This document shows, piece after piece, positions 3,001 through 22,241 of a stretch of 64,000 bases of DNA. The first letter of the stretch is position 1, and every line of letters starts with the position of its first letter. The stretch comes from Terriglobia bacterium (GTDB lineage Bacteria > Acidobacteriota > Terriglobia > Terriglobales > Acidobacteriaceae): assembly GCA_020072815.1 (NCBI GenBank), contig JAIQGE010000008.1, positions 1 through 64,000 on the forward strand, written 5' to 3'. The notes under the pieces were generated by a model. It was not told where the DNA came from. It saw only the letters and a program-made list of their open reading frames with translations, and did no database searches. The translations under genes and the position numbers were made by a program.

Positions 3001-4252
3001 GAACCATGCGGCCGGCTTGGGCTATGACGCTGTGGGAAATATGACCAATTACACCGCGCCTGGGCAGTTCGTTTACGACCAGGAGAACCGGCTCTTGTCC
3101 ACCGCAGGCATGACGTACACCTATGACGCTAATGACGAACGGGTCCTCAAGTCGAACACCAGCACCGGTGCTGCTCTGAAACGCTACTGGTCTGGTGCAG
3201 GCAATATCGTCGCTGAGGCGGACGGTTCCGGCACTCTCACCGCGGAATACATCTATTTCGGCGGCAAACGCGTGGCGCGCATTGATCTGCCGGCAAATTC
3301 CGTCCACTACTATCTCTCTGACCATTTGAGTTCAACCAGCGTCGTGGCCAGCTCGGCGGGAGCGATTGAGGAAGAATCGGATTACTATCCGTTTGGGACT
3401 GAGGTGGTTGTTAGCAGCACGGGAGGAAACAAATACAAGTTCACCGGTAAAGAACGGGATTTGGAGAGTGGACTGGATTACTTCAGAGCGAGGCACTACG
3501 GAAGCACGCTGGGACGGTTCATAAGTTCCGATCCGCTCGGCGGCTTACTTTTCGATCCGCAGAGTCTTAACAAGTACACATACGTCAGAAACAATGCGCT
3601 CCGCTACACCGATCCCACGGGGATGTACATCTGTGCGGACAGTGCGAAGTGTGATTCAAAACAGGACATCGCGTTCGAGAAAGCTCGGCAGAATGATCTG
3701 AAGTCCAAAGACGAGAACGTAGTGCGAGGAGCATCAGCCTACGGTGACAAGAACACAGATAACGGTACTACTGTCAAATTCGGCGATCCTGGAAAAGGAA
3801 ACGATGGTATTACGAAAAACGACCTTGGTGCTGATCCAAAAGACCCGAACAAGATCCGGGCAGTTGAAACAGTGACATTCAGGGACGGACTCAGCGGTGC
3901 GGCACTGGATGCGGCTGTAGGTCACGAAGGCAGTCATGTTGCGGATGCGCAAGACTTTGCAGCTTCGATTACTGCTGCTGGAGGATTCGACGCCTCCAAG
4001 AATCTGAGCAAGTATCAGACAGAGCTTAAGGCGTATGTGGTCACTCAGTCGATCATGTCTTCTGAAAACGAAAAACGGGGATACGGTAACTGCGGAATGC
4101 GAGACCCTTGCGCACTCGGAGTTGGCGTTAGTCCCACGCAGGCAAGAGACACCATCAATCGGTTGCTTGCTAATCCGGCGAATGGCTATGGCGGCATAAC
4201 GCCACAGAATCCCGGCCCGACGTTGTACCCGAGCCTCACACCTCCGAAGTAG
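2..4252 (+). CDS. RHS/YD-repeat protein with bulb-lectin insert (5' end outside window)
   Basis: The reading frame is open to the left edge, so the N terminus is missing. At least 1,412 residues are visible. Many YD repeats (for example YDSLGRLRTAQNPESGT) build the RHS shell. They are followed by the RHS core (FTGKERDLESGLDYF near 3440-3480, then NKYTYVRNNALRYTDPTG) that normally marks the boundary to a variable C-terminal toxin. Between about 1165 and 1950 the YD pattern is interrupted by repeated QxDGNxVxY motifs (QTDGNFVLY, QDDGNLVLY, QTDGNFVVY, QSDGNLVIN), the signature of GNA-type bulb lectins. The last ~215 residues follow DPTG and include GHEGSHVADA, an HExxH-like motif, so a metal-dependent C-terminal effector is possible but unproven. 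Known RHS proteins are secreted or surface-exposed and act in contact-dependent antagonism. The role here is inferred. Confidence 0.9.
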   Translation, partial: PSNKMTQVTKSYDPPQSSTGVIFGNVVTEKLYDWGPGGPGSGPGALLRETDTVYQWQKNSSYLTAHIVDLPASTVVIDPVAANNTKSGCPINAAGGTASCIAETDPFYDEAAYLTASGITTQHVAPPAAVRGNLTTLSHWLNTANSFVSSHTNWYDTGEPYQNIDPLGHTTTLTYDSAYVGAYVTQTCSPQTGTVTHCVIGTYDFNTGLLTSFTDQNGQTSNYGYDLMSRMTSAQAPPDLANGSARATTSLSYATTSLPWSVTRTRSITSTLTDSATSVFDGLGRSNKGQHPMPGGTATVDTVYDPAGHVASVTNPYFSTSDPTYGITSMQYDALDRVTHTTKQDGSISTVSYSDNCITVTDEAGKQRRTCSDALGRLAEVDEPSTATLPAQNNHATMQTDGNFVLYSPTNTVLWSTGTAGTNAPGPIYMQDDGNLVLYLFKWQIGTYAAPSPGPFAPASCSIGTYLMAGQRLNANQCISSPHGQYILLMAGDGTFFIYDYAHNVGTWGPGTSGHPGAYAILQTDGNFVVYASNGVALWSSGTSGTNANRLNMEDDGRVIIYRSVWNSGTSTGQFNWTQLAHPSCDVGIGVGWTGVIGTGSCIVSPNGHFELLMQSDGNLVINDLAQTPAATLWSAGTGITAISPGIAMQTLYQYDALGDLLRVDQKGSAPSDSTQWRTRLFTYDSLGRLRTAQNPESGTISYAYDNDSELLMKTSPAPNQTGSATQTISYCYDELHRVTKRDYAAHTYAPPACPITTAVVSYTYDAGTNANGKLTHLVDQAGTADYFYDPLGRMTSETRVISGISKSLSYGYNLDGSLKTMTYPSGRIVTYTPDSVGRPVSTVDSNGANYVTSAAYNAASSLTSLVNGNSTSFAGITKSFLFNPRLQLCRITAYSSGSVPGSCTDAANHGNLMDRGYNYNLGAGDNGNVMGITNYRDTTRSQSFIYDALNRLTSGWSAANTGAMSWGETYSIDPWGNLMIAPMANKANGGNFQHAGDYQNHAAGLGYDAVGNMTNYTAPGQFVYDQENRLLSTAGMTYTYDANDERVLKSNTSTGAALKRYWSGAGNIVAEADGSGTLTAEYIYFGGKRVARIDLPANSVHYYLSDHLSSTSVVASSAGAIEEESDYYPFGTEVVVSSTGGNKYKFTGKERDLESGLDYFRARHYGSTLGRFISSDPLGGLLFDPQSLNKYTYVRNNALRYTDPTGMYICADSAKCDSKQDIAFEKARQNDLKSKDENVVRGASAYGDKNTDNGTTVKFGDPGKGNDGITKNDLGADPKDPNKIRAVETVTFRDGLSGAALDAAVGHEGSHVADAQDFAASITAAGGFDASKNLSKYQTELKAYVVTQSIMSSENEKRGYGNCGMRDPCALGVGVSPTQARDTINRLLANPANGYGGITPQNPGPTLYPSLTPPK

Positions 4253-4258
4253 GAACGA

Positions 4259-4726
4259 GTGGACATGCAGATTCGAATGTTAGTAACGCTCTTCGTTTTG
4301 GTGGCATCAGCGTTTGCTCAGAGCAAGACGAGAACGACGAATGCCAGGCAATATCCCATTCTAACCCGCGCAGAGATGCCCACATATCCGCGCGTGGCGC
4401 TTGCTGCTCACATCAAGGGCTCAGTGACAATCCAAGTTACTGTCGAACGTGGTTCAGTCACCAATGTTCAGGTACAGTCATCGGGCAGTCCGTTTCTATC
4501 CAACCCGGCAGTAGAGAACGTGAAAACTTGGCAGTTTGAGCCGACCACTGATACTACGTTTCTTGTGACGTATGTGTATCAGATCAAGGGAAAAGAAACG
4601 CCAGTTTTGGAAAACCCCAAGATCGAACTGGTACTTCCGCGTCTAGTCAAAGTGACCGCCAGGCCAACCAAGCCCACATGCAGCGATTGCCGTGCTCAGC
4701 GTCAAGGTCCTGCACAACCAGACTGA
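4259..4726 (+). CDS. Exported TonB C-terminal-domain protein with a chimeric tail
   Basis: GTG start at 4259, five bases after an AGGA sequence; ATG at 4265 is an alternative. A signal peptide (MLVTLFVLVASAFAQ) is followed by a TonB C-terminal fold: a YPRVALAAHIKGSVTIQVTV segment and the typical VKTWQFEP motif. Such stand-alone TonB-box proteins are common in acidobacteria, and their substrate is usually unknown. The natural C terminus is probably near PTKPTCSDC. The last dozen residues are read from the start of the RHS remnant that follows, so the end looks fused by rearrangement. It lies six bases after the RHS gene and could be co-transcribed with it. An immunity role is possible but nothing in the sequence shows it. 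Confidence 0.7.
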   Translation: MDMQIRMLVTLFVLVASAFAQSKTRTTNARQYPILTRAEMPTYPRVALAAHIKGSVTIQVTVERGSVTNVQVQSSGSPFLSNPAVENVKTWQFEPTTDTTFLVTYVYQIKGKETPVLENPKIELVLPRLVKVTARPTKPTCSDCRAQRQGPAQPD

Positions 4727-5228
4727 GTACTGGGGCAACTCGTACGCTTATGACGCCCGGGGTAACCTGCTGCAGAAGACTGTGACCAAGTGCGGCGCGG
4801 AGAACATGTTGTTGACCGCGGACGCGCATAACTGGATCCGCGCCACCAGCCTGCCGGACTATCTGTATGACGCGGCTGAGAACATGACGCACGACGCCAC
4901 GGCCAATCTGGATTACACCTTCGACCAGGCAAACCGCATCACTGGCGCCGGCGGCTACACCTACACTTACGACGCCGACGGCAACCGGGTGAAGAAGTCG
5001 AACGGCGCTGGGGCGTCGGCGGGGACGTTGTACTAGTACATGACGCCAGGGATCGTGGCGGAGTCAGACTAGGCGGGGACGCTCAAGAGCGAGTACGTGA
5101 TCTTTGGCGGCGAGCGCGTAGCCCGCCGCGATCTGGTCGCGCCCACGGGAGTGTTCTACTACTTCTCTGACCACCTGAAGATCGCGTCGGTGGTTTGTCC
5201 CGGCAATGGCCAACAGGAGCCGGGCTAA
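4692..5228 (+). pseudogene. Decayed RHS/YD-repeat fragment
   Basis: One frame reads YD repeats (YAYDARGNLLQKTV, YTYTYDADGNRVKKS) and then YVIFGGERVARRDL and FYYFSDHL. These match segments of the full RHS protein upstream (YIYFGGKRVARIDL, HYYLSDHL). TAG stops at 5034-5036 and 5070-5072 interrupt it, and a TAA ends it at 5226-5228 before the RHS core is reached. There is no N-terminal region and no toxin domain. It is therefore a displaced or degenerate RHS segment, not a working gene. Confidence 0.8.
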
Positions 5229-5325
5229 ACCTAGGAAAAGTAAGCGAGAGAACGAGCTTGACTGTCTGCCCAGGCAGAGCGTCACTGTGTAGTGCCCCCA
5301 TATGCATTAAGGATGTGACCTAAAA

Positions 5326-5784
5326 GTGGAAGTCTCTGAACAGCTCAAAATTCTGCCCGGAATGGCCAAAACTGCCCTGCGTAAGCAGTGGCAGGAACTC
5401 TTCAATAAAGACGCACCAAAGCGTCTCCGCAAGGAAATAATGCTCCGCATCCTCGCGTACAGAATTCAGGAGGAAGCCTACGGCGGCCTCAATCCCAAGA
5501 TCCGCAAACGGCTTCACCAGATCGCGAGTTCCATGAGCAGCAACCCGAAGGCCGCCATCGCAGACACTGCCCGAGCCAAACCGGGAACCCGCCTGATCCG
5601 CTCATGGCAGGGCAAGACTCACACCGTGACCATCGAGGAATCGGGCTATCAATACCAGGGTCGCCGATACCGGAGCCTATCGGAAATCGCCCGGCTGATC
5701 ACCGGCACTCGCTGGTCGGGGCCGCTCTTCTTCGGCTTGAAGGCCGGAGCTTCCAAGGGCACAGGTGCAGCAAATGGCCGCTGA
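5326..5784 (+). CDS. DUF2924 family protein, partner of serine recombinase
   Basis: 152 residues from a GTG start. The protein has the features of DUF2924: a helical N half (RKQWQELFNKDAPKRLRKEI, then LAYRIQEEAYGGL), a middle with PGTRLIRSWQGKTHTVTI, and a C-terminal YQGRRYRSLSEIARLITGTRWSGPLFFGL. The family is routinely encoded directly upstream of large serine recombinases in phages and genomic islands; its biochemical role is not established. The C-terminal half resembles a small DNA-binding module, which is an inference. It overlaps the start of the recombinase gene, so the two are very likely translated as one unit. There is no clear Shine-Dalgarno sequence. Confidence 0.85.
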   Translation: MEVSEQLKILPGMAKTALRKQWQELFNKDAPKRLRKEIMLRILAYRIQEEAYGGLNPKIRKRLHQIASSMSSNPKAAIADTARAKPGTRLIRSWQGKTHTVTIEESGYQYQGRRYRSLSEIARLITGTRWSGPLFFGLKAGASKGTGAANGR

Positions 5785-7528
5785 GAACAAATCTGTGATC
5801 CGCTGCGCCATTTACACTCGGAAATCTTCCGAAGAAGGTCTGGAACAATCCTTCAATTCCCTGGAAGCCCAGCGCGAGGCATGTGAGGCATACATTGCCA
5901 GTCAACGTCACGAGCGCTGGCGTTGCCTGGGGAACCACTATGATGACGGTGGTTACTCTGGCGGATCCATGGAGCGCCCTGCCCTTCGTCAGTTGCTGGC
6001 TGATATCGATGCCGGGAGGGTCGATACCGTAGTCGTTTACAAAGTGGACCGCCTGACCCGATCTCTGGCCGACTTTGCCAAGATCATCGAACGCTTCGAT
6101 GCCAGGCAGGTCAGTTTCGTCTCCGTTACCCAGCAATTCAATACCACCAGCTCCATGGGACGCCTGACACTCAACGTCCTGCTCTCCTTCGCGCAGTTCG
6201 AGCGTGAGGTCACCGGTGAGCGCATTCGCGACAAGATTGCTGCCTCAAAACGAAAAGGCATGTGGATGGGCGGCCGGGTCCCTGTCGGTTATGACGTCAA
6301 GGAACACAAGCTCATCGTCAATGTGTCTGAGGCCGATCAGGTCAGGAAGATCTTCCGGTTGTATCTGAAACTTGGCTGCGTCGCCAAGCTGAAGGCCCGA
6401 CTCGACCGAGATGGAATTAAGAGCAAAACGCGGCTAAGCGCGTCGGGGGTGAAGTCGGGTGGCATGTCTTATTCCCGTGGCGCCCTTTACACCCTTTTGC
6501 AAAACCGCATTTACCTCGGCAAGATCCCTCATCGTGACGCAACATACCCGGGCGATCACGCCGCGATCATCCCCCAGGAACTATGGGACAAAGTGCAAGA
6601 TCGGCTCAGAATCAATAACAAGGTCCGTCGCAATGGTGGCAATGCAAAGTCTCCGAGTCTATTGGTAGGGCTGCTCTACGACGATCAGGGCAACCGGTCT
6701 ACTCCCTCGCATGCGGTGAAGAGCGGTAAACGGTATCGCTACTATGTTTCGCAGGTCGTAATTCATCATCGAATGGCTGCCAAGGGCGGTCCGACCAGGA
6801 TCCCGGCAGAGGAAATAGAGGGTCTTGTCTGCCGCAGGATCCAGTCCCTTCTAAGTTCACCCGAACAACTGCTCCAGTCAATTGGCATTGAGTCGGACGG
6901 TGCTGCGATCAGCAAATCGTTGATCACCGCCGGGAAGCACCTAGCAAAGAGCTGGCAGGCCAAATCGCCAGCTGAACATCGGGAGTTCTTGAGAGGCGTG
7001 ATCGAGCGAATCGTTGTACATGAGACCAGCTTGGAGGTAGCGATAATCCAGGCCGCGCTACGCGAAGCGTTGCTGGGTGCTCCTTCAACTCGTCTCACGG
7101 AGCGGGAACACCCCGTTCAACGGCGAATGCGGGATGTCTTTAAACTCAAGATCGACGCGATATTGAAGCGCTGCGGCGGTGAAGTCCGGCTACTTGTCCC
7201 GCCAGACTTCGCAACTGAAGCACCCTCGCGACCCGTTCCATCGCTGATCAAAGCCGTCGCCCGCGCCCATCAATGGCCTGAAAAGATCATCCGCGAAGGG
7301 CTGGCGAGCCTGCGATCGATCGCCCAACTGACGGGTCTCGATGAGCACTATGCCGGTCGAATTCTAAACTGCGCATTCCTCGCCCCTGACATTGTAGAAG
7401 CCATTCTCGACGGACGTCAGCCCGCAGATCTGACCGTCCAGAAATTACTGCGCGGTTTACCGCTGGCCTGGTCCGAGCAACGTAAGCAGCTGGGCTTCCC
7501 GCAAACAGCGTCACCGCGGGATAGATAA
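5774..7528 (+). CDS. Large serine recombinase / site-specific integrase
   Basis: About 584 residues; ATG at 5774 is preferred over GTG at 5765. The N-terminal resolvase domain carries the nucleophile motif YTRKSS, then DGGYSGGSMERP, VYKVDRLTRS and FAQFEREVTGERIRDKI, all typical of catalytic serine recombinases. A recombinase domain follows (YTLLQNRIYLGKIPHRDATY). The usual Cys4 zinc ribbon is not visible: LLVGLLYDDQGN occupies the position without cysteine pairs. The C-terminal third is helical and ends with SEQRKQLGF. Such enzymes integrate and excise phages or islands by double-strand exchange at att sites. It forms a unit with DUF2924 and marks the left part of the accessory region. No att repeat could be assigned by eye. 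Confidence 0.93.
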   Translation: MAAENKSVIRCAIYTRKSSEEGLEQSFNSLEAQREACEAYIASQRHERWRCLGNHYDDGGYSGGSMERPALRQLLADIDAGRVDTVVVYKVDRLTRSLADFAKIIERFDARQVSFVSVTQQFNTTSSMGRLTLNVLLSFAQFEREVTGERIRDKIAASKRKGMWMGGRVPVGYDVKEHKLIVNVSEADQVRKIFRLYLKLGCVAKLKARLDRDGIKSKTRLSASGVKSGGMSYSRGALYTLLQNRIYLGKIPHRDATYPGDHAAIIPQELWDKVQDRLRINNKVRRNGGNAKSPSLLVGLLYDDQGNRSTPSHAVKSGKRYRYYVSQVVIHHRMAAKGGPTRIPAEEIEGLVCRRIQSLLSSPEQLLQSIGIESDGAAISKSLITAGKHLAKSWQAKSPAEHREFLRGVIERIVVHETSLEVAIIQAALREALLGAPSTRLTEREHPVQRRMRDVFKLKIDAILKRCGGEVRLLVPPDFATEAPSRPVPSLIKAVARAHQWPEKIIREGLASLRSIAQLTGLDEHYAGRILNCAFLAPDIVEAILDGRQPADLTVQKLLRGLPLAWSEQRKQLGFPQTASPRDR

Positions 7529-8363
7529 GGCCATACATCAACTGTTGTAGAGGAGACGGTGCTTCAGTCCCAGAGAACTGCTTCAGAGCAGGCGGCGCTT
7601 CAGACACTGTAGAACCTCAGCAGAAAAAGATGCGCAAGGATATCAAAACCCCGCGGTGAAATAAAATACCCAACTCAGACCCGGCAAGCTCTTGCAGTAC
7701 ACCGTGCAGTGGGCTGCCTTGGCCCAAATCCTCGTTCAGCTGAGATAGCGTCCAGTTCTCGTAATCGACTTGTGCCCTGGTCTTGGTGAAAGCTGTTGGT
7801 GGCCTGATTGATATCCAGGATTTCATATGCCGCCAGGCCATGAGTTGTCTTGTCGGTTTGCTGCGGACCCTCCTGATGTAGGAGGGCAATGTTGCGGAAA
7901 TGGCAGATTGTAAGAGGCTTGAAGCATTGCCCTGAAGTGCCGGGGCTTTTGTAGCCGTTGTGATTCGCCTGGCACGCTTGTGGGAAAGTAGCCAGCGAGC
8001 AAAGCTTAAACAAGCTCGACGGCGAGGTCGGGCCTAGATCCTGCAGCTTGCCCTGCCGAGAAACCGACAATGCAAGAACTTGCAATTGGCAGAATCTTGC
8101 AAATTGAAATAATGAATCAGTCAATGCAATTCTACTTGAAGAATCTTTGGCGCGAGAGTATCGTTGTCAACTACATCCCCTTGGAACTGGCCGGGCTCCA
8201 CACAAGAGTTTTTCCGGATTACCCTGCTTGGTGATTTCCCAATTGGTCCAATATCGGACTCGTAGCGTCTTAGGCCATAAGAAGTGAAGTAGGTCCCCCT
8301 AACCAGGTTTCAGGATTTAGCAAAACTGAGATGCTCATTCCCTTGTACGGAGGAGGAGAAGCT
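7529..8363. other. Stretch without a supportable gene, upstream of the TerY-P operon
   Basis: About 835 bases. Reading frames of 90 and 149 codons exist on the minus strand (7617-7889, 7675-8124), but they overlap each other, lack clear ribosome binding sites and match no family I know. They may be a degraded gene. The right half holds TTGCAA-type repeats (see the inverted repeat at 8071). A purine-rich GGAGGAGGAGA at 8349-8359 is the ribosome binding site of the VWA gene. Confidence 0.5.
8071..8084. promoter_or_regulatory. Inverted repeat TGCAAG-AA-CTTGCA, possible operator
   Basis: Six-base arms around a two-base centre, followed by a third TTGCAA copy at about 8097-8102. It lies about 280 bases upstream of the VWA-PP2C-kinase operon in a region without genes. 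A role as repressor site for that operon is only inferred. Confidence 0.25.
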
Positions 8364-9056
8364 ATGTCCAGCCTTGCAGATCGAATCGAGATCGGTAATC
8401 CGACCCAGCCGCATTGTGCAACGGTTCTTTTGCTCGACGTTTCAGGATCTATGGATGGCGAGAAGATTTCTCAGCTTAACCATGGGCTGCAGGTTTTCAA
8501 GGAAGAGATATCCAAGGACGACCTAGCCAGCAAGCGCGTCGATCTAGCCGTGATTTCCTTTGGGCAAACGGTCCAGGTGGTGCACGGCTTCAGCAACATA
8601 GACGATTTTGAGCCGACGGTCCTGACCGCGAACGGGGCTACGCCCATGGGGGCGGCGATTCTTACGGCGGCCGACATGATCGAGCAGCGAAAACAGCAAT
8701 ACAAATCGCAGGGCATCGATTATTACCGGCCCTGGATTTTCATGATCACTGACGGCGCTCCCACGGATATGCAGGTTGGCGATTCAACCTGGAACAAGGT
8801 ACTGCAGTGTGTTCATGAGGGTGAATCCGGCAAGAAGTTCATGTTCTTCGCGGTAGCGGTGGACTCCGCTGAAACCCATCTCTTGGCCCAGATTGCGCCT
8901 CCCAACCGTCCTCCGGTGCGTCTGGTGGGGACGAAGTTCAAAGAGATGTTTCAGTGGCTGTCAAAGAGCCAGGCCAAAGTTTCGTCGTCCAAGATCAATG
9001 ACACGGTGGCTCTGGAGAACCCGGTTGCTGCCGGCTGGGGCGCGGCGTCGACTTAG
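8364..9056 (+). CDS. TerY-like von Willebrand A domain protein (TerY-P triad)
   Basis: 230 residues from ATG 8364, chosen because GGAGGAGGAGA lies directly upstream; an in-frame ATG at 8331 has no such site. A single VWA domain fills the protein, with a complete MIDAS: LLLDVSGSMDG (DxSxS), the threonine in NGATPMGAAI, and MITDGAPTDM. In TerY-P triads, described from comparative genomics of tellurium-resistance and stress systems, this protein is encoded with a PP2C phosphatase and a Ser/Thr kinase. The VWA domain is thought to be a metal-dependent scaffold. Both partners follow immediately here. Cytoplasmic: no signal peptide or membrane segment. Confidence 0.92.
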   Translation: MSSLADRIEIGNPTQPHCATVLLLDVSGSMDGEKISQLNHGLQVFKEEISKDDLASKRVDLAVISFGQTVQVVHGFSNIDDFEPTVLTANGATPMGAAILTAADMIEQRKQQYKSQGIDYYRPWIFMITDGAPTDMQVGDSTWNKVLQCVHEGESGKKFMFFAVAVDSAETHLLAQIAPPNRPPVRLVGTKFKEMFQWLSKSQAKVSSSKINDTVALENPVAAGWGAAST

Positions 9057-9073
9057 TCGCGGCGGTGTGTGCA

Positions 9074-9883
9074 ATGGCTTCAGAAGGCAACGCAACTGTC
9101 GGCCCTGATTCGACCGCCGAATTCAATCGCGTATTCGGCGCATCGGTGATCGGACCACTGCACGTGCAGATGGACCTGCCTTGCCAGGATGCGTGTGCGT
9201 ATCGGGTTTTGCCCTCGGGAGCCATTCTGGTAGCGGTCGCTGATGGACTTGGCAGCGCCTCCCTGAGTGAAACCGGAGCCGCGCTGGCGGTGACCGCAGC
9301 CATCCGCGAATTGGAAACCATGTTGGAGCAAGGACCCGAGGCTGATCGCGAAGCAATGGTGCGAGGCGCCGCCCGCGCCGCACGTAACCTTTTGGAGGAA
9401 CACCAAAAAGCGTCCGGGTGCCAATTGAAAGACCTCGCTTGCACCCTGATCCTGGCATTACTCCAGGACCATCGCTTGACTGTGGGACACATCGGTGACG
9501 GCGCAGTGGTGGCGGAGTTGGAAGAGGGATTCAAAACGGTTTCTGAGCCCGGGGAATCTGAATTCGCGAACGAGGTGGTTCCGCTCACCAGCGCCACTTG
9601 GGAACGGGAATTGCGGACTGCGGCGGCTGACGGGGGAGTACAGGGCATTGCGGTCTTCACTGACGGGTGCCAGCGGGCTGCGTTCAAAAAGTCTGAAACG
9701 GGGCTGATCCCGTTCGAAGGCTTTTTCCGGCCAGTCTTCAGCTTTGCCCGCGATGTAGCCGATGCCGAAACCGCGAGGGAGGAAATCAAGGCATTGTTGG
9801 CCAGCGAAAAAATATGCAGTAACTCTGACGATGACAAAACGCTCGTCATCGCCGTAGTCCACAATCACGCGCGTCATGCCTGA
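9074..9883 (+). CDS. PP2C family protein phosphatase (TerY-P triad)
   Basis: 269 residues from ATG 9074 (GTG 9065 also possible), 17 bases after the VWA gene. PP2C metal-binding motifs are visible: VADGLGSASLSE near the N terminus, VGHIGDGAVV in the middle and VFTDGCQRAAF toward the end. The final NSDDDKTLVIAV supplies the C-terminal aspartate region. It is expected to be a Mg/Mn-dependent Ser/Thr phosphatase that reverses phosphorylation by the adjacent kinase. The 3' end overlaps the kinase start by eight bases, which argues for translational coupling. Confidence 0.92.
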   Translation: MASEGNATVGPDSTAEFNRVFGASVIGPLHVQMDLPCQDACAYRVLPSGAILVAVADGLGSASLSETGAALAVTAAIRELETMLEQGPEADREAMVRGAARAARNLLEEHQKASGCQLKDLACTLILALLQDHRLTVGHIGDGAVVAELEEGFKTVSEPGESEFANEVVPLTSATWERELRTAAADGGVQGIAVFTDGCQRAAFKKSETGLIPFEGFFRPVFSFARDVADAETAREEIKALLASEKICSNSDDDKTLVIAVVHNHARHA

Positions 9884-12656
9884 AAAACTCTACAACACTC
9901 AGGGCCAGCCCATCTCGCTGTCGCTTGAAATCGGAAGCGGCGGTGAAGGTGTCATTTTTGCCAATCCGGGAAATGACCGCGATTGCGTTAAGTTCTATCC
10001 CAGGGCGGTTTCGGACGACACGCACAGGAAGCTCGGGATCATGGTGGAGCACCCTCCCATCGACCCCGCTCCCCAGACTTCCAGCCACCGGTCTATTGCA
10101 TGGCCGAGCGCGTTGCTGTATCGCGATTCCGCGCGCCAGAACCTGGGTGGATTTTTGATGCCCAGGATCGACATGAAAAGATTTCACAAGGCCCTGGTGT
10201 ACGTAGACTGGCAAGAGCGCTCCAAGAGATTTGGCGGGGTGTTCACCTGGAAGCACCTGTTCACGGCTGCCAGCAACACTGCCAGCGCGATCGCGGCCAT
10301 CAATGACCTGGGTTATTGCGTGGGGGACATCAATGAAAGTAATCTCCTAATCGCTCTGGAAGCTCTGGTTACGGTGATTGACTGCGATTCATTTCAGGTG
10401 CCGGACCCGAAGTCAGCCAAGGTGTACAGGTGCGGCGTCGGCAAAGGCGAATACTCGGCGCCTGAGCTGCTCGGCAGGGACTACAAAGACGTGGACCGCA
10501 CGATTGCCTCGGATTCCTTCGCTCTTGGCGTATTGCTTTTCCAACTCCTGATGGAAGGCACGCATCCATACCAGGCCAAGGGCAAGCTGGTGGAAGGGGC
10601 GGACAATACTGAGGCCAAAATCAAGCGCGGGCATTTTGCCTACGCGATGCGCACCCGGGACATTGCTCCGCCAGACCACGCGCCGCCCTACGAATTACTG
10701 CACCCGGAAATTCGCAGTCTCTTCGAACAGTGCTTTGTCGCCGGCCATCGTGATCCCGCGGCCCGTCCCAACGCGCGCGACTGGCACCAGTTGTTCATCA
10801 AACTCAAGGGCCGCTTCGTTGTGTGCCCGAACAACCAGAATCATTGTTATTTGGATCACCTGCGGGCCTGCCCATGGTGTGCGCTAAAGAAGTCCACCGG
10901 CCATGATCATTTTCTGAGTCCGGTAGGCCACCAGATCGCGCTCGACACGCACTCCGGCCAGGCCGATAGCCTGGACAAGCGGATCGAGCACCTCACGCCG
11001 TTCATCCAGGTGGCTTTCGCCGATGGCATTCTGACCCCAGAGGAAGAGCTGTTCCTGCTGGCGCGGGGCGCGGAGCTGCAGATTCCGCCAAAAGAGATCA
11101 AGAAGGCCATCGAAGCCGAGCAACGGCGCCTGGGTGGCGCTAAAGCGGTGTCCGCAGGCACTCCCAAACTTGAGGTTTCAAGGGTGAACTTCACCTTTGA
11201 AAAAATTCGCCGGGGCAGTCCGGCGTCCGGAAGTTATTTCATCAGCAACGTCGGTGGGGGCAGCCTGCAAGGCAAGATCTTGCCCAGGCAGGCGTGGCTC
11301 AAGGCGTCGCAAAGCGTCATCGACCCAACGCGGCATCGCCAGGAACACACCTTCCACGCGGACACATCCAAGCTGCCGCTGGGCTCAAGCAATCTGGGTT
11401 GCATTGATATTGAGTCGAATGGCGGTCGCGCGCAAGTCCAGGTGTCGGTTTCGATTGAGATCGAAAAAGAAGCGCTCTCGCGCTTTCGCGCTGGTGTCTT
11501 TACCCTGGGTGCAATCCTGGGCGGACTATTCGGCTACGTTTTGTACTACTACCTGCTTGTCGATGTTCCTTCTCGCGTCGTGGTCTCGGCGATCGCGGGA
11601 CTTGTGGGTTTGGTCGGCGCCACCATCGCGGCGTCGCGGAGTGGCGGCTTTTTTGGCGGATGCGGGACCTTTGTGATCGGCAGTACGGTCATCGGTGTCC
11701 TGCAGGCGCGTGCCCCTTTGGTTTTCTCCATCATTGCATGGGGCCTTATCGTCAGCGCTTTGTTAGACCTCTTTGCTCGCCCATTGTTTGTTGGCCGGCA
11801 CGCCGGGAAGGTCGGCGCTGCCGTGGCCGCCTTGTTGACCAGCGTGGTGCTCGCTGCCGCGGTAATCTTTACTGGCATTTCCCTGAAAGATCGGGTGAAT
11901 ATCCCCCCGCAGACCATGCCGCCCGTTCAACTGGGAACAATTGCGACTTGCAGCAAGGCCACAGGCTGGAAACGATTTACGCCAAAGTCGGAATTCCGGC
12001 CGAACGACCCAATCTGTGTCTACGCGGAAGCGCTCAATGTGGCTCGCAACGGCAAGATAGATCTCAACTTTACGGTCAACCTCAAGAACAGCGCTGGCGG
12101 TGTTTTGACCTCCACCGGACGAAGGGTTTCCGCGCACAAAAATGATCCGTCAGCCTGGTCCTCATGGCCGGCCCTTAAGCTGCCGGCAAATTCTTCCGCC
12201 GGATCCTACCTGGCGGAAGTGCTTGTTCACAACAATCTTTCAAATCAAAACGGAGTCTCATCGGCTGCATTCACTGTCATCGCACCGGCGGCGACTTCTA
12301 CCCTGGCAGAGAGTCAGACTGGGGCGATGAGCCTGAGTAGTAGTTGGTCTGGAATCTGGTACCCGACCGTGAAGTCGTGCGCCCAGCCGCCCTATCCCCC
12401 GCAGCAGATCAGGCTGGACTTGCAGCAAAGCGGGAGCCAGGTGACTGGGACATTGTCGGGGCCAGGTATTACAACCGGCCGGCTTGCAGGGACTGTGGAT
12501 GGAACACACTTCGCTGTGATCATCGACTATGGCCATCGGCCACCTGATGGCTCATTGCAGGGCACCCTTACGGGAAACCAGATCCGCGGGACAATAGCCG
12601 AGGAACCTCGGTCGAACCAATGCACCTGGTCTGGCAATTTTGAAGTAAACAGATGA
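9876..12656 (+). CDS. TerY-P triad Ser/Thr kinase with Zn knuckle, TerB-like region, membrane segments and extracytoplasmic domain
   Basis: 926 residues. The N-terminal kinase (about 1-320) has a glycine loop IGSGGEGVIF, the lysine in DCVKFY, a catalytic loop GDINESNLLI and a DCDSFQV segment in place of DFG, the variant typical of TerY-P kinases. A cysteine knuckle follows (VVCPNNQNHCYLDHLRACPWC), then a helical stretch FIQVAFADGILTPEEELFLL that resembles TerB-type acidic helices. After that comes an Ig-like segment (TPKLEVSRVNFTFEKIRRG), about four hydrophobic helices (roughly 530-680), and a C-terminal part with beta-rich sequence ending QCTWSGNFEVNR that probably lies outside the membrane. 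It probably phosphorylates proteins in a stress or defence pathway. The large membrane and outer extension would let it sense the envelope (inference). Confidence 0.9.
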   Translation: MPEKLYNTQGQPISLSLEIGSGGEGVIFANPGNDRDCVKFYPRAVSDDTHRKLGIMVEHPPIDPAPQTSSHRSIAWPSALLYRDSARQNLGGFLMPRIDMKRFHKALVYVDWQERSKRFGGVFTWKHLFTAASNTASAIAAINDLGYCVGDINESNLLIALEALVTVIDCDSFQVPDPKSAKVYRCGVGKGEYSAPELLGRDYKDVDRTIASDSFALGVLLFQLLMEGTHPYQAKGKLVEGADNTEAKIKRGHFAYAMRTRDIAPPDHAPPYELLHPEIRSLFEQCFVAGHRDPAARPNARDWHQLFIKLKGRFVVCPNNQNHCYLDHLRACPWCALKKSTGHDHFLSPVGHQIALDTHSGQADSLDKRIEHLTPFIQVAFADGILTPEEELFLLARGAELQIPPKEIKKAIEAEQRRLGGAKAVSAGTPKLEVSRVNFTFEKIRRGSPASGSYFISNVGGGSLQGKILPRQAWLKASQSVIDPTRHRQEHTFHADTSKLPLGSSNLGCIDIESNGGRAQVQVSVSIEIEKEALSRFRAGVFTLGAILGGLFGYVLYYYLLVDVPSRVVVSAIAGLVGLVGATIAASRSGGFFGGCGTFVIGSTVIGVLQARAPLVFSIIAWGLIVSALLDLFARPLFVGRHAGKVGAAVAALLTSVVLAAAVIFTGISLKDRVNIPPQTMPPVQLGTIATCSKATGWKRFTPKSEFRPNDPICVYAEALNVARNGKIDLNFTVNLKNSAGGVLTSTGRRVSAHKNDPSAWSSWPALKLPANSSAGSYLAEVLVHNNLSNQNGVSSAAFTVIAPAATSTLAESQTGAMSLSSSWSGIWYPTVKSCAQPPYPPQQIRLDLQQSGSQVTGTLSGPGITTGRLAGTVDGTHFAVIIDYGHRPPDGSLQGTLTGNQIRGTIAEEPRSNQCTWSGNFEVNR

Positions 12657-12710: not shown

Positions 12711-12872
12711 ATGTCCAGAAGAATTTGAGACGCTTGTGGAAAAGAGCACGATGTCAGTGGCGGCAAGACCTGTGAAAAAGGTCACTTCATCTGTAAGAGC
12801 TGCGTGTACAGCGGCGTGATCTTCATTTCTGAAAAGGCCCATTGCCCGGTCTGCAGGAAGCCTTTGCGCTAA
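12711..12872 (+). pseudogene. RING-like C3HC4 mini-gene with in-frame TGA at the first ligand
   Basis: ATG 12711 is preceded by AGGAGAGA at a good distance (12701-12708). The frame reads five codons (MSRRI), a TGA at 12726-12728, then 47 sense codons to TAA at 12870-12872. After the TGA the frame gives DACGKEHDV, then KTCEKGHFICKSC, then HCPVCRKPLR. If TGA stands for cysteine, the ligands follow C-x2-C-x11-C-x3-H-x2-C-x2-C-x13-C-x2-C, the C3HC4 RING/treble-clef spacing. It sits 54 bases after the TerY-P kinase in the same direction. Either one base change (TGT or TGC to TGA) inactivated a small zinc protein of the triad operon, or the codon is recoded. No convincing SECIS hairpin is visible. 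Only a weak five-pair stem lies just downstream. Confidence 0.7.
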
Positions 12873-12915: not shown

Positions 12916-12990
12916 ATGCACATTGGATATGCCAAAGGGCGAAAGAGCTCCTACGAGGTAAGTTGGGATGAGTATATCCGCAGCAGATGA
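12916..12990 (+). CDS. Possible 24-residue peptide after the TerY-P operon
   Basis: ATG 12916 follows GGGAGGT (12905-12911) with about five bases spacing, an excellent ribosome binding site. The peptide starts MHIGYAKGRKSS and ends DEYIRSR. It is basic and soluble, with no family recognised. It lies 43 bases after the RING-like gene, on the same strand, and its 3' end overlaps the end of the convergent TIGR02391 gene. Support is the ribosome binding site and context only. Confidence 0.4.
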   Translation: MHIGYAKGRKSSYEVSWDEYIRSR

Positions 12991-13676
12991 CTGGACAGTA
13001 TAAACATTTCGATTGCTTCTTCCGCATCGATGGTCACTTTTCTGTGACTGTGCGGGTTCTTGTACGAACCAATCGCCCCGGCAAAAAGGTTGGACAACGC
13101 CTCTCTCTCAGCGGGAAGCTGCGAAGCGTCGGTAAGCGGCCCCGCACTTACATCAAACGCCTTGCGCATCAGGGCCACTCCTATGTCCGATGCGCTGAGT
13201 TTCGCTGCGGTCCGTACCGCCACTTCGACTTCTTTGAATGCCTGAAAGACTGCCGTGTCGTACTCCCCGCGAAGGAAGAGTGCGTACACCTTGTCGGCGA
13301 TCTGTGGGTGCAGTAGAGTGCGAGGCAACAAAGTGGCTTTGCGATAATTCGCGAATCCGGTGCGATCCCTCAATTGCTGGCCGCGCCTTGTAACAAAAAC
13401 GGTATCTATGTCCGTGTCGGGAGAAGGTGCAATCAACACTTCCCGCGTAAGCCAATTCCACTCCTCCATCAACGCAAATCGGACTTGTTCGTGGAACTTC
13501 GGATCGTAACCTTTAAGTACGTCACGAGTCCGGCCCGTTAGGCCGAGCCGCTGAACCCGGCCAAGCTGAATTATGCCGGACGAATTCATGTATTCAAGCA
13601 ACACTCCAGCAAGCTCCTCAGTTTCCAGAGCCAATAGGTCTTGGGGATTCGGGATCATTTCCGCAAAAGACTTCAT
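12951..13676 (-). CDS. TIGR02391 (Ymh) family protein
   Basis: 241 residues. The C-terminal half carries the family pattern: a helix LSASDIGVALMRKAF, then EREALSNLFAGAIGSYKNPHSH and a final AIEMFILSSHLLRIY. The motif around KNPHSHR is the most conserved part of the family. The N-terminal half is an unrelated helical domain. Family members occur in plasmids, phages and defence loci, and their biochemistry is unknown. The start overlaps the stop of the upstream exonuclease gene by four bases (ATGA), so they form one operon. The gene converges on the TerY-P operon. Confidence 0.8.
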   Translation of the reverse strand: MKSFAEMIPNPQDLLALETEELAGVLLEYMNSSGIIQLGRVQRLGLTGRTRDVLKGYDPKFHEQVRFALMEEWNWLTREVLIAPSPDTDIDTVFVTRRGQQLRDRTGFANYRKATLLPRTLLHPQIADKVYALFLRGEYDTAVFQAFKEVEVAVRTAAKLSASDIGVALMRKAFDVSAGPLTDASQLPAEREALSNLFAGAIGSYKNPHSHRKVTIDAEEAIEMFILSSHLLRIYSSQLTS

Positions 13677-14533
13677 GTTGTTCCGCTCACGTTCTGGCCG
13701 ACAATACTCTTGAAGTCACTTTCTCCCACAATCCTGATACGCTGGCCCTTGTTGATAAGCTCTTCGGCTTTGCGGTGCTTGGAACTCTTTTCGTGCCCGG
13801 CCAGTTTGCGAATATCCTGATCGCCGACTACTAGTAAAGTCGTGTGCTTGGTCACGCCGTCATCGACTTGGCACCCAGCATTCGCGGCAGCGACAGCCGC
13901 ATCATGACGAAGCATGGACAAAGACCCCGTGAAAACCAATACCTCTCCGAACAGTGGACCCTCGCGATTAGCCTCAGGAAGATCCTCGTGCCCGTGAATG
14001 GGCTGGCAAACCCGCACCAGCCACTGTTCAATGCTTAGACCCGTCTGCGCTACGGCACGCAACAGTATTTCCCCTGCGCACCGGGCATCCTCTAACGCAT
14101 CGTGGGCCTTGTACTTGATGCCGAAGGTCGCAGCGACATTTGAGAGTCCGTAGCCTGATCTTGAAAACTGTGGCCATGTACGCCTGACCACGCGAGCTGT
14201 ATCAATCCAACGGCAATCACACGTTAAGAGACTCCATCTTCCGCAGGCTTGAGTCAGGGCCGCACGGTCGAACGGCGTGTGACTGGCGACAATATTGCCG
14301 GTCAGAAACGGGGCAATAGCTGAGTACACTTCAGGCCAGGTCGGCTCACCATGGACTTTATCCTCGTCGATGCCGTGGATGGACACATTGAGTGAGTCAA
14401 AGTAGTCCTGGGGGTTCACCAGCCATTGCCGGGGATTCTCAAGGACTCCGTCGCGAAAAGGCGCGATCCCTATTTGGCAAATGCTCGCGAGATTTGGATT
14501 TGCGGTCTCAACGTCTATAACGACGAAGTCCAT
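13673..14533 (-). CDS. DnaQ-like 3'-5' exonuclease fused to a BRCT domain
   Basis: 286 residues. The N-terminal exonuclease is of the DEDDh type: FVVIDVETANP (first D and E), SHTPFDRAAL (second D region) and HDALEDARCAGEIL (H and final D). Residues from about 195 on form a BRCT domain: LFGEVLVFTGSLSMLRHDAA, then TTLLVVGDQD and the KHRKAEEL region, as in NAD-dependent DNA ligases. Exonuclease-BRCT fusions are known stand-alone DNA-processing proteins. It heads a two-gene operon with the TIGR02391 protein, in an island context that suggests DNA defence or repair. Confidence 0.9.
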   Translation of the reverse strand: MDFVVIDVETANPNLASICQIGIAPFRDGVLENPRQWLVNPQDYFDSLNVSIHGIDEDKVHGEPTWPEVYSAIAPFLTGNIVASHTPFDRAALTQACGRWSLLTCDCRWIDTARVVRRTWPQFSRSGYGLSNVAATFGIKYKAHDALEDARCAGEILLRAVAQTGLSIEQWLVRVCQPIHGHEDLPEANREGPLFGEVLVFTGSLSMLRHDAAVAAANAGCQVDDGVTKHTTLLVVGDQDIRKLAGHEKSSKHRKAEELINKGQRIRIVGESDFKSIVGQNVSGTT

Positions 14534-22151: not shown

Positions 22152-22241
22152 TGGCGGAGGGAGAGGGATTCGAACCCCCGGTACCCTTTCAGGTACAGCG
22201 GTTTTCAAGACCGCCTGTTTCAACCACTCACACATCCCTCC
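22152..22241 (-). tRNA. tRNA-Ser (anticodon TGA), CCA encoded
   Basis: The minus strand folds as a class II tRNA. Acceptor GGAGGGA pairs with TCCCTCC, and the anticodon stem GCGGT/ACCGC encloses loop CTTGAAA, giving anticodon TGA. A long variable arm GTACCTGAAAGGGTAC is present, as in tRNA-Ser, and the T arm reads GGGTTCGAATCCC region. Discriminator G and CCA are encoded at 22155-22152. It reads UCA codons. Its 3' end points left, toward the accessory island, a common arrangement for integration sites. Confidence 0.97.

Follow-up and report, generated by a model that had tools for sequence, protein, structure and literature searches.

A small RING-like gene with an in-frame TGA at its first zinc-ligand position in a Terriglobia bacterium

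The window analysed here is a stretch of 64,000 nucleotides from the genome of a Terriglobia bacterium. On its plus strand it carries three neighbouring genes that code for a TerY-like VWA protein (8331–9056; Pfam VWA, 2.9e-08, and a weak PADLOC match to TerY, 0.002), a PP2C-type phosphatase (9065–9883; Pfam PP2C_2, 3.9e-48) and a protein kinase (9876–12656; Pfam Pkinase, 1.1e-08). The kinase has, by eye, a Cys-rich stretch beyond its kinase domain (CPNNQNHC...CPWC). The three genes share their domains with the TerY-P triads, which according to the available text of PMC11090510 consist of a VWA protein, a PP2C phosphatase and a kinase that carries a fused zinc ribbon; as described there, the triad does not include a RING-like gene. 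In the window, a frame of this kind (12711–12872, plus strand) begins 54 nt downstream of the stop codon of the kinase (12656), which confirms its position directly after the TerY-P kinase, as noted in the sequence-only reading of the locus. Upstream of the triad there is a large serine recombinase (5765–7528; Resolvase and Recombinase domains), as in a mobile island. The RING-like frame is followed by a 24-aa ORF (12916–12990; MHIGYAKGRKSSYEVSWDEYIRSR), preceded by GGGAGG and without a Pfam match. On the minus strand (12951–14533), genes for a Hypoth_Ymh protein and for an RNase_T exonuclease run convergent with the RING-like gene; the exonuclease matches the PADLOC candidate PDC-S48 at 2.5e-27.

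The frame at 12711–12872 has 53 codons plus stop, and AGGAGAG lies 3 nt 5' of its ATG. Its translation reads MSRRI, a TGA stop, then DACGKEHDVSGGKTCEKGHFICKSCVYSGVIFISEKAHCPVCRKPLR and the terminal stop. The in-frame TGA, at codon 6 (12726–12728, plus strand), occupies the place of the first zinc-ligand Cys, as seen from the translation and from the relatives described below. The other seven ligands are all present (C9, C21, H25, C28, C31, C45 and C48). If position 6 is counted as the first ligand, the eight are spaced C-x2-C-x11-C-x3-H-x2-C-x2-C-x13-C-x2-C, in agreement with the C3HC4 RING formula. Translation thus bears out the earlier description of a 53-codon frame with seven ligands and a TGA placed exactly on the missing first Cys. 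The frame shows no further lesion. The only in-frame ATG, GTG or TTG codons that follow the TGA are two GTG codons, 32 and 36, and one TTG, codon 52; since all of them lie after ligand 6 (C31), a cross-braced zinc domain cannot form from a restart.

The eight-ligand order and spacing are those of C3HC4 RING fingers such as zf-C3HC4_3, zf-RING_5 and Prok-RING_4. Unlike in these, the domain here is the whole protein and the scores lie below the Pfam cut-offs; E3 activity is a candidate function. In the two members for which bit scores are at hand, no Pfam RING model exceeds its curated cut-off: zf-C3HC4_3 matches at 19.0 bits (cut-off 27), and zf-P11 at 19.4 bits (cut-off 25.6). The other members of the family alignment (A2) are represented by counts and best E-values. 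In individual scans at E up to 1, with the window's copy read with Cys at position 6, the 29 aligned sequences match Sina_RING in 29 cases, zf-RING_5 in 23 and Prok-RING_4 in 22. The solved chains closest in sequence to the relative L058 are arenavirus Z RING proteins (5i72, E 0.0038). The AlphaFold2 model has a mean pLDDT of 79.4 and a pTM of 0.56. Foldseek gave weak matches (best E 0.058, probability 0.95, none at 0.001), and the best 50 rows are mostly RING domains or complexes containing RING proteins. VIA-align reached a top Z of 4.9 and returned a mixture of an IFT-A chain, a ribosomal protein, ZZ domains and RING domains, with non-RING chains on top. Because the Pfam scores stay below the cut-offs and the structural matches are weak and mixed, we use the label RING-like. 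Prokaryotic RING domains were reportedly treated by Burroughs et al. in 2011. The part of PMC11354881 available gives C4HC3, not C3HC4, as the arrangement of prokaryotic RING domains, whereas the family described here has the C3HC4 order; if that rule holds, a bacterial C3HC4 family is less usual.

After removal of duplicates (L005 = L058, L085 = L072, L086 = L074 and L098 = L057), there are 30 distinct relatives of the RING-like frame. A pattern scan of the genome_contigs collection supplied 27, from many phyla; one viral relative (L084) came from two scans of viral contigs, and profile searches added L087 from the phylum sample and L099 from the family sample. The closest relative is 81% identical to the window's frame. 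The C3HC4 ligand order recurs in the aligned relatives, nearly all of which are 45–56 residues long, and ligand 8 is Asp in four of the 30 (L074, L076, L081 and L099). Position 6 is covered by 29 relatives, of which 28 have Cys and one (L081) has Tyr; L075 begins after this position, at a contig start, and is outside the count. None of the 30 relatives has a stop inside the domain, and the TGA is found only in the window's copy. This count has to be read together with the search method: the pattern scan finds only sequences that fit a pattern exactly, and one of the two patterns demands Cys at position 6, so the scan is biased against TGA copies. The second pattern and the stop-reading profile searches of the phylum and family samples are free of this bias. 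The 30 relatives and the near-invariant Cys at position 6 identify the frame as the remnant of a real gene, beyond chance.

Two of the relatives have features of their own. L081 (1062–1199) combines Tyr at ligand 1 with Asp at ligand 8 and is possibly a degenerate copy. L084 (1–159), on a viral contig, is 79% identical to the window's frame, has Cys at position 6 and lies at the contig end, and its neighbours are two large ORFs that look phage-structural by eye.

The RING-like gene is rare and accessory. With the window's genome counted, it is present in five of the 396 genomes of the phylum sample and in four of the 398 genomes of the family sample, and it is absent from all eight other sampled genomes of the window's genus. 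At E up to 1, 65 of 150 genomes gave a match, and only those of G000 and G018 are taken to be real (next best E 0.0065). Within its own genome the sole strong match to the gene is the gene itself; a second match, L002, was rejected as due to chance (E 0.995). A tblastn search of plasmids gave weak matches only, the best among the matches listed having an E of 0.2. The family is best read as one of small stand-alone RING-like (binuclear treble-clef) zinc proteins that are thinly scattered across many phyla. The gene may move between genomes, and the intact relatives would bind two zinc ions and act as small protein-interaction modules.

The sequence-only reading had raised the question whether homologues of the frame neighbour TerY-P triads. 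Such a shared neighbourhood was not seen. At 29 related loci (L057 to L084 and L087, L099 being left out), with flanks ranging from none to 8 kb and many of them short, the three proteins of the triad gave no tblastn match at 1e-3 and no six-frame phmmer match at 0.01; the window itself, used as the positive control, was matched. Other neighbours are mixed. Pfam and PADLOC scans covered 114 of the 125 selected neighbour ORFs (without three whose frames are broken and eight more). They represent 103 Pfam families at 1e-6, of which 92 occur in a single ORF, and match 160 PADLOC models at 1e-10. Restriction and defence genes are among them, with a GmrSD gene directly before the RING-like gene in L060, and further Pfam matches include DruA, a DNA methylase and a reverse transcriptase. 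Since the triad was not found near the relatives and the other neighbours are so mixed, its proximity in the window seems to be particular to this locus. L075 and L077 have VWA genes of other types a short way downstream of the RING-like gene. In L075 the VWA gene is followed by one for a large protein, tubulin-like by eye; in L077 it comes after a DnaJ-domain protein.

One neighbour recurs. In L071, L072 and L073 the RING-like gene has beside it a gene for a protein of 104–114 residues that ends in FGGEE(V/I)IEY. L068 contains a related stretch, and in L070 a tail of 22 residues is found where the contig begins. The genomes concerned are labelled as different phyla. The one member scanned matches no Pfam family at 0.01, and the protein is missing from the window (best window match E 0.46). 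Its repeated adjacency makes it a candidate functional partner of the RING-like protein.

A ubiquitin-like role beside the kinase, phosphatase and VWA genes had also been suggested, and it is left unsupported by the same survey of 29 loci. The genome does encode one E2-like (UQ_con) ORF above the Pfam cut-off, on contig C1. It belongs to a run of Prok-RING_1/TM2, GYF_2, DUF2752 and UQ_con (L097, G000:C1:220000-233000, 4051–6680), and the 14 control genomes are without a UQ_con match. This run likewise includes a prokaryotic RING-type domain. It differs from the gene studied here in that its Prok-RING_1 belongs to another family, lies on another contig, is fused to TM2 and stands beside an E2-like protein. 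No link between the run and the window was found. Judged by these domain matches, RING and E2-like proteins are no strangers to the organism.

The frame bears the mark of past constraint. Compared with L057, L084 and L058, the window's frame has pN/pS ratios of 0.13, 0.18 and 0.20, and pairs among these three intact relatives give 0.14, 0.19 and 0.37; the ratios are rough because pS, at 0.76–0.99, is near saturation. Values this low indicate that the frame was under purifying selection in the past, and a stop in a frame otherwise so constrained must be young, or false, or decoded. Its placement is not remarkable. Taking codon 6 as a Cys codon, there are 22 single-base routes to a stop in this gene, and seven of them, about one in three, create a TGA on a Cys ligand.

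A codon of this kind could be read as selenocysteine (Sec), as the sequence-only reading had also considered, and the search it proposed for selA, selB and selC found the machinery in place. The genome has selA (551 bits), selB (389 bits), selD (382 bits) and tRNA-Sec (73.9 bits, anticodon tca), all above their cut-offs. In the 14 control genomes, selA exceeds the cut-off in one, selB in two, selD in two and tRNA-Sec in five. A tRNA at 22152–22241 was rejected as a tRNA-Sec: it scores 47.8 bits against a cut-off of 47, and ARAGORN identifies it as tRNA-Ser with anticodon tga. The selD gene has an in-frame TGA of its own, as do two formate-dehydrogenase-like ORFs of the same genome (602.8 and 170.4 bits, below the TIGR01591 cut-off of 666.25). 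According to the accessible text of PMC12013277, the acidobacterium Occallatibacter riparius was part of a test set, with three known selenoprotein genes. By its gene content, the genome should be able to read UGA as Sec, and the test by absence of the machinery does not rule out recoding.

For the RNA signal, a 2026 review (PMC13188914) gives, in its available part, a model of the bacterial SECIS element (bSECIS): a loop of 3–9 nt with G in one of the first two places, a stem of 4–16 bp, a loop position 16–37 nt after the UGA and an energy of at most -7.5 kcal/mol. No hairpin that fits this model follows the TGA of codon 6, the best reaching -1.7 kcal/mol against the limit of -7.5. Under the same constraints the three positive controls, which are TGA-containing ORFs identified by homology, reach -20.7 (SelD), -21.8 (Fdh1, loop GGUCU) and -13.6 kcal/mol (Fdh2), with the loop 18–20 nt after the UGA; these fitting hairpins belong to the own-genome genes L051, L088 and L091. 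The two strands of the window together hold 2019 TGA triplets, of which 40% pass -7.5 and 59% at least equal the candidate. Passing is thus weak evidence, and failing is informative. The same stretch even scores better in Cys-coding relatives (L058, -9.3; L084, -7.0 kcal/mol), and unconstrained folding after the UGA is no better than that of shuffled sequences (z -0.90 and -0.02). These scores are hairpin energies alone; an earlier scoring (candidate -12.0, with 46% of the 2019 triplets passing -7.5) was discarded, as unrelated helices had added energy. The Rfam model SECIS_1 has no match in the genome at E up to 10 and matched four of the 14 controls, none over the cut-off. It also missed the genome's own TGA-containing selD and formate-dehydrogenase-like genes and is therefore non-discriminating, for which reason the published constraints were used instead.

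Folding does give a hairpin closer to the codon (12729–12755, plus strand; -7.3 kcal/mol, 8-nt loop with G first). Its loop starts 10 nt after the UGA, outside the published spacing of 16–37 nt, and 9.2% of the 2019 TGA triplets have an equally good hairpin at a spacing of 4–15. In the nearest three relatives with Cys the hairpin is less stable, at -2.1, -2.9 and -1.3 kcal/mol.

How the codon is to be read was graded by judgement and not by computation. We consider it probable that the TGA is a real inactivating stop that has recently interrupted this copy of an accessory family of stand-alone RING-like proteins. The premature stop at codon 6 would end translation after five residues and leave the copy inactive; the base itself would be real and its change recent. 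The nonsense alternative in the sequence-only reading agrees with these data, the relatives having Cys where the window's copy alone has TGA. The triad genes upstream are unaffected by the stop. Nevertheless, the seven intact ligands and the lack of a second lesion would be explained equally well by recoding or by a read error. The main rival is a sequencing or assembly error, in which case the organism itself would have an unbroken gene and the TGA would stem from a wrong consensus. One wrong base would suffice in a frame that is otherwise intact and has a purifying history, and no other copy has a stop. The assembly, however, looks sound, with 5.29 Mb spread over 32 contigs, a completeness of 100 and a contamination of 0.14; the adjacent frames of the triad are long and open, and we hold such an error to be rather unlikely. 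Ordinary readthrough of a leaky stop, yielding a little full-length protein, seems very improbable. UGA is the leakiest stop codon, and a regulatory small protein may need few copies, but the sequence has no pointer to this, and the base after the TGA is G whereas the leakiest context has C.

Decoding as selenocysteine, by which SelB and tRNA-Sec would insert Sec as the first zinc ligand in a U-x2-C motif, is highly improbable in our estimation. It draws on the complete machinery, on the alignment of the TGA with a near-invariant Cys and on the close hairpin with its G-first loop. The NCBIfam model MbdU, a double selenoprotein described as metal-binding, also matches L057 and L072 (E 0.024 and 0.043), though far below its cut-off. 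The locus resembles bacterial UxxC selenoproteins in that the TGA falls on a conserved Cys within a C-x2-C knuckle and the genome has Sec machinery. It differs from them in the failed bSECIS test, in the absence of any TGA-bearing relative among the 30 and in a Cys that is structural rather than redox-active; Cys-to-Sec changes concern mainly thiol redox proteins, in 15 of 17 families according to the available text of PMC1794560. Of the proposal that the codon is decoded, the machinery has thus been found, while the RNA signal and the TGA-bearing relatives have not. The available part of PMC13188914 mentions bacterial selenoprotein genes that fall outside the SECIS model and families in which Sec is thought to serve as a metal ligand, which makes recoding unlikely rather than impossible. 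The specific form in which Sec would be inserted through a non-standard, close-set SECIS, with its loop 10 nt after the UGA, and would create a selenium-dependent zinc module beside the kinase/phosphatase/VWA triad, is a distant prospect. Only the slightest weight is left for something else.

With an inactivating stop as the preferred reading, 12711–12872 is best annotated as a pseudogene, or as a frame with one doubtful codon. If the stop is a plain one, it is a warning that a TGA on a conserved Cys, even in a genome with full Sec machinery, is insufficient to call a selenoprotein, since about one in three single-base nonsense routes in so Cys-rich a gene would look identical. If the codon is decoded, selenocysteine would be placed in a structural zinc site. 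The stand-alone RING-like family, with a recurrent unnamed neighbour in some of its members, merits attention for zinc binding and for binding to E2 proteins.
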